Position numbers and translations under genes: made by a program. A DNA stretch of 41,011 bases from an uncultured Alcanivoracaceae bacterium (GTDB lineage Bacteria; Pseudomonadota; Gammaproteobacteria; Xanthomonadales; Marinicellaceae). Below are positions 27,621-29,101 of the stretch, one piece after another; the first letter of the stretch is position 1; each line of letters begins with the position of its first letter. Location: the NCBI GenBank assembly GCA_947311585.1, contig CAMZLQ010000134.1:1-41011 (forward strand). Reading direction: 5' to 3'. Under the pieces are notes generated by a model that was given only the letters and a program-made list of their open reading frames with translations, did not search any database and had not been told where the DNA came from.

Positions 27621-27648
27621 TTGACACTAAAGTTTTCTTGAATATAAT
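27621..27648 (+). promoter_or_regulatory. consensus sigma70 promoter TTGACA-N16-TATAAT
   Basis: TTGACA 27621-27626 and TATAAT 27643-27648 read directly upstream of the 27695 ORF. Confidence 0.8.
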
Positions 27649-27654
27649 TAATAC

Positions 27655-27668
27655 ATACATTATTGTAT
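27655..27668. promoter_or_regulatory. operator candidate ATACA-TTAT-TGTAT at the predicted transcription start
   Basis: Inverted repeat; 13/14 identical to the site at 29053-29066. Confidence 0.55.
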
Positions 27669-27694
27669 ATTTTAATAAATAAACAGAGGTTATT

Positions 27695-27931
27695 ATGAAA
27701 AAAACAAAAACTTTATTACTTTCAGCATTAGTTGGCTTAAGTTTGGCAATGTCTGCACACTCCATTCCTGATTATGGAACATATACAGCAAAAATTATTT
27801 GGAGAGGTGGGTTTGTCTATGTTAGTGGAATCGGTCAACAAGGTTGTTGGTGGAATGCCACTCAGTTTGTCTTTACACACCCTAACTCCCATATATTGGC
27901 TCCTGGCTGTACTATGGCTCAAAACTCCTAG
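27695..27931 (+). CDS. small secreted peptide, unknown function (mature part with 2 Cys)
   Basis: Signal peptide MKKTKTLLLSALVGLSLAMSAHS; SD AGAGG; consensus promoter upstream and strong terminator downstream. Confidence 0.75.
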   Translation: MKKTKTLLLSALVGLSLAMSAHSIPDYGTYTAKIIWRGGFVYVSGIGQQGCWWNATQFVFTHPNSHILAPGCTMAQNS

Positions 27932-27945
27932 TACTAATATAATAT

Positions 27946-27983
27946 AAAAACCCTGTTACTCAGCAATGATTAACAGGGTTTTT
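27946..27983 (+). terminator. intrinsic terminator of the 27695 peptide gene
   Basis: 13-bp perfect stem AAAAACCCTGTTA / TAACAGGGTTTTT with 12-nt loop. Confidence 0.88.
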
Positions 27984-27987
27984 GGTC

Positions 27988-28034
27988 AAAAACTCGATTG
28001 AAATACAGTGAATAGCGTTTATCTAATCGAGTTT
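27988..28034 (-). terminator. intrinsic terminator of the DUF6502-like/peptide operon
   Basis: 10-bp stem AAACTCGATT / AATCGAGTTT; minus-strand RNA continues into TTTTT. Confidence 0.65.
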
Positions 28035-28046
28035 AATGGGAACTCT

Positions 28047-28286
28047 TTATGGACGGCAATGACCGCCAGTCCCCTCTTCCTCCCCCATACGGTTATTACT
28101 TGTTTGATCTTCATCACAATCATCTTCTGGTGGAATGATAACTCTTGTTTCCCGAGTCAAATCAAACTGTTCAATTAATTGTATTAGGTAAAATTCTTGC
28201 TGATTTTTTATTTGACTGTTTTGTGCAAGGGGCTCATCAGCCATTGCAAAACTCGATATTAGCAACAGGGGTAATAATTTTTTCAT
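28047..28286 (-). CDS. small secreted acidic peptide, unknown function, 2 Cys
   Basis: Signal peptide MKKLLPLLLISSFAMA; start overlaps the stop of the upstream gene (28283-28286, ATGA). Confidence 0.7.
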   Translation of the reverse strand: MKKLLPLLLISSFAMADEPLAQNSQIKNQQEFYLIQLIEQFDLTRETRVIIPPEDDCDEDQTSNNRMGEEEGTGGHCRP

Positions 28287-29044
28287 TGGTCTTCCTCTTT
28301 TTTATGATTTAGATTAAATTGCATTAATGATATTCCATACTTTTTAAAAGTACCAGATTCGACATCTTGGTAATAGTGCTCAAACTCCTTTTTGAGTTGG
28401 TTTTTTGTGTTTTCCAGTATCTGTCGTGTTTTCCTGTGTAATTCATTTAGTGAATCAGGATCAACACGCGTTGTAAAAATGCTATATTCGTAATCCCTTT
28501 GCTCCCTTTGAGGGCAATTAATATTCCACAGCACCGTATTTGTAAAATGATCGATATGATTGGAGTATATTTGCATCGTTTGGCTTGAGTTCGGAATATT
28601 GGTTATGGTATTGGTAATGTATTCAATTTTATCGCCTAAATCCTTAATGCAACCCAACGCACTGAGTTCTTTTATTACTGAATTCAGTGTGGTTGCTCCG
28701 TAGGCAACTTTTTTAATTATGCTCTCAATTGAATTTTCACCCCTCTTATTAATCACTTTTGTGGAATACTTCTCACACTGAAGTTTTATGTTATTGATGA
28801 GGGTGAATATTGAAGAGTTTTTTTTGTATTGCGGCTTATCTTTAATAATAGCTGATACTGTTCTTCTATCAATTCCTGTCTTTAATGCGGTACGAGTGAT
28901 TGTTTTATTGTGTTTATAGTTTTCTAACACATACTCTTTTCTAAGCGTTTTAACAGCTTCATCAAAATCAACATTAAATTCTTGCATAAAACGAGCCAAA
29001 CCTTTAAAAGTTTTCTCTAAGTCTTTGAGTGTTTTCATGCTCAC
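28283..29044 (-). CDS. DUF6502-like putative HTH regulator
   Basis: N-terminal HTH-like KTITRTALKTGIDRRTVSAIIKD, overall length and layout like DUF6502 proteins. Start is GTG 29044 or ATG 29038. Confidence 0.65.
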   Translation of the reverse strand: MSMKTLKDLEKTFKGLARFMQEFNVDFDEAVKTLRKEYVLENYKHNKTITRTALKTGIDRRTVSAIIKDKPQYKKNSSIFTLINNIKLQCEKYSTKVINKRGENSIESIIKKVAYGATTLNSVIKELSALGCIKDLGDKIEYITNTITNIPNSSQTMQIYSNHIDHFTNTVLWNINCPQREQRDYEYSIFTTRVDPDSLNELHRKTRQILENTKNQLKKEFEHYYQDVESGTFKKYGISLMQFNLNHKKEEDQ

Positions 29045-29052
29045 ATCTTAAT

Positions 29053-29066
29053 ATACACTATTGTAT
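29053..29066. promoter_or_regulatory. operator candidate ATACA-CTAT-TGTAT upstream of the DUF6502-like gene
   Basis: Inverted repeat overlapping a TATATT -10 candidate (minus, 29050-29055); 13/14 match to 27655-27668. Confidence 0.55.
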
Positions 29067-29101
29067 TATTGCAAGATATTTTTTAGATAGACTTAAATTA
29101 T

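Follow-up and report, generated by a model that had tools for sequence, protein, structure and literature searches.

A predicted palindromic operator shared by a remote DUF6502 relative and genes for two putative exported peptides

The window analysed here, a stretch of 41,011 nucleotides from an uncultured Alcanivoracaceae bacterium, contains a compact module in which a gene for a predicted DNA-binding regulator and two genes for small peptides with Sec-type signals form two convergent transcription units, and the promoters of both units carry a copy of the same 14 bp palindrome, ATACA-N4-TGTAT. We consider it likely that this palindrome is the operator of the regulator, which would act as an autorepressor with joint control of its own operon and of peptide 1. 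An earlier note on this DNA had proposed a dedicated regulator with an operator shared between its own promoter and a second secreted-peptide gene, and the comparative sequence data support this core idea. What the earlier reading overlooked is that the module is a member of a large family of regulator and exported-peptide pairs.

Layout of the module

The features of the module, in window coordinates, are the following.

27621–27648, + strand: sigma-70-like promoter of peptide 1 (TTGACA at 27621–27626, 16-nt spacer, TATAAT at 27643–27648)
27655–27668: predicted operator 1, ATACATTATTGTAT (ATACA-TTAT-TGTAT), placed near +1 of the transcript for peptide 1
27695–27931, + strand: peptide 1, 78 aa, with a Sec-type signal peptide and two mature cysteines
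27946–27983: bidirectional terminator hairpin, AAAAACCCTGTTA...TAACAGGGTTTTT, common to both convergent units
28047–28286, − strand: peptide 2, 79 aa, with a Sec-type signal peptide, two mature cysteines and a C-terminal GEEEGTGGHCRP
28283–29038, − strand: regulator, 251 aa, with a helix-turn-helix (HTH) TRTALKTGIDRRTVSAII, a winged-helix-like region and long C-terminal helices
29053–29066: predicted operator 2, ATACACTATTGTAT (ATACA-CTAT-TGTAT on the + strand), in the −35/−10 interval of the regulator promoter
29069–29074, − strand: −35-like box of the regulator promoter, TTGCAA (TTGAAA in the ortholog of the related genome G007)

The two sites had been recognised from the sequence alone, and we find them as described, matching at 13 of 14 positions and each a perfect ATACA-N4-TGTAT inverted repeat. 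The promoter TTGACA-N16-TATAAT reported just before site 1 is likewise evident on reading the sequence; site 1 begins about 7 bp past its TATAAT, and it is because this promoter precedes the site that we place the site at about +1. Site 2 does lie in the regulator promoter, between the TTGCAA box and the −10 region, and the described overlap of the regulator gene with a second secreted-peptide gene is present, the stop of the former and the start of peptide 2 (28047–28286) sharing ATGA. The regulator gene had been given as 28283–29044; its end is correct, but we prefer a start at ATG 29038 (251 aa) to GTG 29044 because the G007 ortholog begins at the equivalent position.

Rarity and conservation of the palindromes

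The motif proved not to be common when the genome was scanned for it. Its degenerate form ATACANTATTGTAT has exactly two occurrences in the 2.24 Mb genome, and ATACA-N4-TGTAT occurs three times, twice at the promoter sites of the module, which are its only intergenic occurrences, and once inside a patatin-like ORF. Shuffling the 1.7-kb module by dinucleotides 5000 times never gave two ATACA-N4-TGTAT sites (mean 0.005; palindrome and motif statistics here and below were computed after inspection of the data). Some repeated N4 palindrome with 5 bp arms was present in 4% of local shuffles, at a local GC content of 33%, so that the pair of sites is only moderately surprising and is weak evidence by itself. 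Decisive for an operator are the genome-wide rarity, the conservation in G007 and the like geometry at paralogous regulators.

G007 is a MAG of the same genus whose regulator is 78% identical to that of the window. Synteny is kept for peptide 1, peptide 2, the regulator, P-II and YifB, there is a terminator hairpin equivalent to 27946–27983, and both sites are retained in the orthologous promoters, operator 1 as ATACA-AATA-TGTAT (L007:6–19) and operator 2 as ATACA-TTTT-TGTAT (L026:1292–1305). Between the window and G007 all 20 arm bases are kept, as against 2 of 8 spacer bases (Fisher p = 7e-5). ATACA-N4-TGTAT is found three times in the G007 genome too, at the same two promoters and inside an acyltransferase-like gene. 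The third sites of the two genomes were considered as further targets and rejected, both being intragenic. Among the relatives, the ATACA version is kept in G007 only; the homolog that comes next in closeness (L027 in G006, 44% identical) was considered as a second module and is without both the operator and the downstream peptide.

The three proteins look to be under purifying selection relative to G007, as judged from the coding sequences. The regulator has a dN of 0.15 with dS saturated, and peptide 1, whose ortholog is found in G007 only, has 53% identity with dN 0.36 and dS 1.49. The C-terminal part of peptide 2, including GEEEGTGGHCRP, is kept at 22 of 34 residues.

A family of regulators with exported partners

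By tblastn, 34 of 61 related genomes have relatives of the regulator, frequently more than one each, and comparison of a seven-row alignment of the family with genome contigs yields 11 MAG loci. A plasmid or phage origin was considered and rejected, the plasmid and phage collections containing no homolog of the regulator. The description of the protein as DUF6502-like holds in part. The window regulator itself has no match to PF20112 (DUF6502; Pfam cut-off 27 bits) at E values up to 1, and two of 16 family members match it weakly, below the cut-off; however, profile A1, of which the window regulator is the first row, finds genes across the class with E values down to 1e-18, and the three of these that were checked have PF20112 scores of 1e-42 to 1e-84. 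By this profile-level homology the window regulator is a remote DUF6502 relative. Matches to the family profile extend to 26 of 274 genomes across the class, including the window genome, whose true DUF6502 gene sits at another locus (G000:C103). DUF4423 (PF14394) gives 16.4 bits (E = 0.008) with the window regulator, under the curated cut-off of 30 bits, and TPR families give no match with the window regulator at E values up to 1 or with 16 members up to 0.05. Nor does the regulator match the RRNPP receptor families in Pfam and NCBIfam, or the module any toxin-antitoxin (TA) or defence family. An AlphaFold2 model built from 11 sequences suggests, at low confidence, an HTH, a winged-helix-like region and two long helices, and because this model is modest (mean pLDDT 66, pTM 0.33) the sensor region is not delimited.

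Many paralogous regulators have palindromes in their own promoters, with the same geometry of 5 bp arms and a 4 bp spacer and with other arms (GTACA, GTGCA, GTGTA and GTCCA), and on this account we take it as very probable that the 251-aa regulator has ATACA-N4-TGTAT as its operator. After removal of near-identical upstream regions, perfect N4 palindromes with 6 bp arms are found upstream of 18 of 41 regulators (4.5 expected) and those with 5 bp arms upstream of 27 (12.8 expected, some of them being chance occurrences); for the other 14, the upstream stretch examined contains no perfect N4 palindrome with 5 bp arms. The sequence GTACAARTTTGTAC has ten sites in 11 related genomes, eight of them just upstream of regulator-family genes. 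Another precedes a gene for a secreted 161-aa cysteine-containing protein with no adjoining regulator gene (L124:1501–2071, G003:C52), and this operator is identical to the operator of a regulator paralog; L124 is a second case of the window arrangement, in which an operator would control an extra exported product. The tenth lies in an orphan stretch that copies the region upstream of a regulator and has an operator but no regulator gene (G005:C53). TGTGYA-N4-TRCACA has 18 sites, of which 16 were examined and eight are directly upstream of regulator genes.

Two further observations concern these upstream regions. In many paralogous modules (L029, L036, L037, L038 and L046 among others) the operator is preceded by about 130 bp of conserved sequence that contains two hairpins, such as GCGTAGCCGTGGAGCTACGC and ...CCTGTTCTC.... 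In L040, L062, L063 and L065 a long regulator homolog and a shorter one (180–193 aa) are divergently arranged, with the palindromes GTACA-N4-TGTAC and AGACC-N4-GGTCT between them, perhaps one for each regulator.

The regulator genes are characteristically followed by a gene for a peptide of 64–96 aa with a Sec-type signal, either overlapping by ATGA or a few bases apart. We counted regulators of at least 240 aa with a signal-bearing ORF of 50–120 aa directly downstream, signal peptides being called by a hydrophobicity rule (hydrophobic N-terminus, basic start). Such a peptide lies at −10 to +30 nt in 12 of 36 regulators and 1 of 126 control genes (p = 3e-8, with kin sequences kept, so that the counts are not fully independent), and the one positive control gene is a divergent member of the regulator family. 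Two mature cysteines are present in all 12 paired peptides, which usually also have Gly-Ser/Thr repeats such as VGGDGTG, VVGDGSN, SAVGTGG and ATEDGSG, the repeat unit being missing or degenerate in some members. For other regulators the peptide is encoded immediately before the regulator gene or follows a frameshift at a homopolymer tract. Peptide 2, whose C-terminal end reads EEGTGGHCRP, fits this partner class in having two cysteines and the conserved C-terminal GEEEGTGGHCRP. Peptide 1 has two cysteines but is without the motif, and it has no Pfam, PHROG or PADLOC family; a weak match to PatX was discarded, as it covers the signal peptide alone. Both window peptides are in frame.

Out-of-frame partners were seen in seven modules from four genomes (L037, L038, L039 in G000:C123, L040 in G000:C154, L062, L063 and L065). 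An A10 or T9 tract separates the ATG and signal start from the frame of the repeat peptide, and one extra tract base, always in the same direction, would give a full signal peptide followed by DGSG/GDGS repeats with two cysteines; the tracts are candidates for conserved slippage during transcription or for phase variation. The modules L040, L044 and L062 are followed by arrays of short DNA repeats, which translate as repeated WGRDFSPVCFKK-like units.

Across the class and order, DUF6502 genes typically overlap the gene for an exported protein by ATGA (loci L089–L116 and L149–L168). The partner is often a DUF5666 (PF18914) lipoprotein starting C...GGIGGTG, and many class-wide partners are lipoproteins of 300–600 aa. 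DUF5666 proteins, DUF4397-like proteins, small lipoproteins and AQGGTG-repeat proteins are non-homologous kinds of partner, and a GG-x-GTG motif is carried by DUF6502 partners across families. G-[ST]-G lies near the mature N-terminus in 27 of 30 partners, where within-sequence shuffling gives an expectation of 8.2 (kin sequences were again kept, and these counts too are not fully independent). The palindrome GGGAN-N4-NTCCC is found at 10 of 48 DUF6502-type genes (about 1.3 expected from its density in the same loci), all ten belonging to the class-wide set.

Proposed circuit and comparison with known systems

The circuit that we favour builds on direct observations: the two sites are rare and conserved, the genes have an operon structure, and throughout the family a regulator goes together with a palindrome and an exported peptide. 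The 251-aa protein would be an HTH regulator of the homodimer type, predicted to bind as a dimer in two places, at the spacer/−10 region of its own promoter and, in the convergent promoter of peptide 1, around the start site. RNA polymerase would be blocked at both, and the regulator–peptide 2 operon and peptide 1 would be held under joint control. The choice between repression and activation was made from site position alone, and we infer repression because the operators cover the −35/−10 spacer and the start site, which are standard repressor positions. Both peptides would be exported by Sec, probably with one disulfide each. The C-terminal region of the regulator presumably senses a signal that lifts repression; a fragment of a co-encoded peptide is the most attractive candidate for this signal, a speculative suggestion that we hold only tentatively.

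It is possible, at well below an even chance, that the module produces exported effectors, either bacteriocin-like or microcin-like or acting in the envelope or matrix, whose dosage the regulator sets in response to an unrelated cue, and this would be compatible with the autorepressor circuit. Exported peptides with two cysteines are consistent with such a role, as are the rapid change of peptide 1, which is 53% identical to its ortholog where the regulator is 78% identical, the extra operator-linked secreted protein at L124 and the larger lipoprotein partners across the class. However, no immunity, export or modification gene adjoins the module, PADLOC, PHROGs and Pfam are without a match, and that regulators and partners stay paired one to one points to something beyond simple dosage control.

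Also compatible with the autorepressor circuit, and in our view rather unlikely, is peptide signalling of the RRNPP kind, in which the co-encoded exported pro-peptide would be cut to release a peptide that re-enters the cell, where the regulator would be its cytoplasmic receptor and DNA binding would be relieved or triggered. The defining receptor fold is missing, no TPR being detected in the regulators, although the RRNPP signature (PMC10075063), with five criteria that include a Sec-exported pro-peptide and C-terminal TPRs, is matched on three counts and likely on a fourth, Sec export. A small Sec-type pro-peptide directly beside a DNA-binding protein of 250–300 aa, the short VGGDGTG and VVGDGSN units in many partners and the G-[ST]-G excess common to non-homologous DUF6502 partners all point towards signalling, whereas class-wide partners are often 300–600 aa lipoproteins rather than small pro-peptides, the cysteine pair of each peptide points to a folded product in the periplasm or outside the cell, and some members have a degenerate repeat unit or none.

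That the palindromes are chance repeats or sites of an unrelated global regulator, in a coincidental neighbourhood, is very improbable: AT-rich DNA and the shuffles with a repeated palindrome leave some room for chance, but a global regulator would have many sites and not three of which two are here, G007 keeps the arms while the spacers change, and the promoters of paralogs have palindromes of like geometry whose arms differ. A toxin-antitoxin pair, with the regulator as autoregulated antitoxin and the small peptide as membrane-active toxin, has the least to recommend it, since the palindromic operator in the regulator's own promoter and the two overlapping genes of the operon, the second with a small product, are offset by Sec signals and conserved cysteine pairs in the products, by a partner class that reaches large DUF5666 lipoproteins and by the lack of a match to any TA or defence family.

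Regulator/pro-peptide pairs are typical of Gram-positive Bacillota, and Proteobacteria typically use small-molecule signals (PMC10075063). RRNPP systems such as PlcR–PapR, NprR and AimR–AimP (PMC10075063) resemble the window in the adjoining of a DNA-binding, receptor-like protein and a small, putatively Sec-type pro-peptide; the pro-peptide here is small (79 aa) and directly adjacent, and the regulator (251 aa) falls within the 250–500 aa of the receptors. The window differs from the RRNPP systems of Bacillota in having no detected TPR domain, a Gram-negative host and, in its family, repeat-rich two-cysteine peptides, and membership of RRNPP is rejected because the TPRs are missing.

HetR of filamentous cyanobacteria, with PatS, PatX and HetN (PMC7761841, PMC4649674), is likewise an HTH regulator with a palindromic target, and RG[ST]GR recurs in its different partner peptides and proteins as xG[ST]G does in the DUF6502 partners here. 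It is also the top Foldseek match of the regulator model, at a non-significant E = 0.065 and TM of about 0.3 for a low-confidence model. Homology to HetR, suggested by this match and by G-[ST]-G, was rejected on profile comparison: hhalign of the regulator profile with HetR (query sequence checked against PDB entries) gives a probability of 0.3% over 26 columns, and the HetR family in Pfam has no match for the window regulator. The resemblance is an analogy only. A more far-reaching proposal, which we regard as unlikely, is that HetR–PatS or RRNPP circuits have a Gram-negative counterpart in the DUF6502 superfamily, in which each regulator would recognise a Gly-Thr/Ser-Gly peptide from its own co-encoded exported partner and have a private 14 bp operator (5 bp arms, 4 bp spacer), with genus-level expansion into insulated regulator–peptide–operator triplets and some partners gated by a slippery homopolymer.

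The literature searched for DUF6502, TIGR02147 and DUF5666 contains no functional paper, and the regulator and exported-peptide pairs are apparently a large, undescribed family. The DUF6502/DUF5666 loci share with the window an HTH regulator of 250–300 aa, often an ATGA overlap with the downstream gene, an exported partner with a GG-x-GTG-like motif and, in part of the family, a 14 bp promoter palindrome. The window differs from them in a regulator without a PF20112 score, in a partner that is a 79-aa peptide and not a lipoprotein, in operator arms of ATACA and not GGGAN, and in the presence of a second operator-linked peptide gene. Such pairs may be one way in which Gram-negative bacteria signal with peptides; they provide a first functional hypothesis for DUF6502 and concrete candidates for Gram-negative peptide sensing, each with a DNA-binding protein, its own motif-bearing exported peptide and its own operator.
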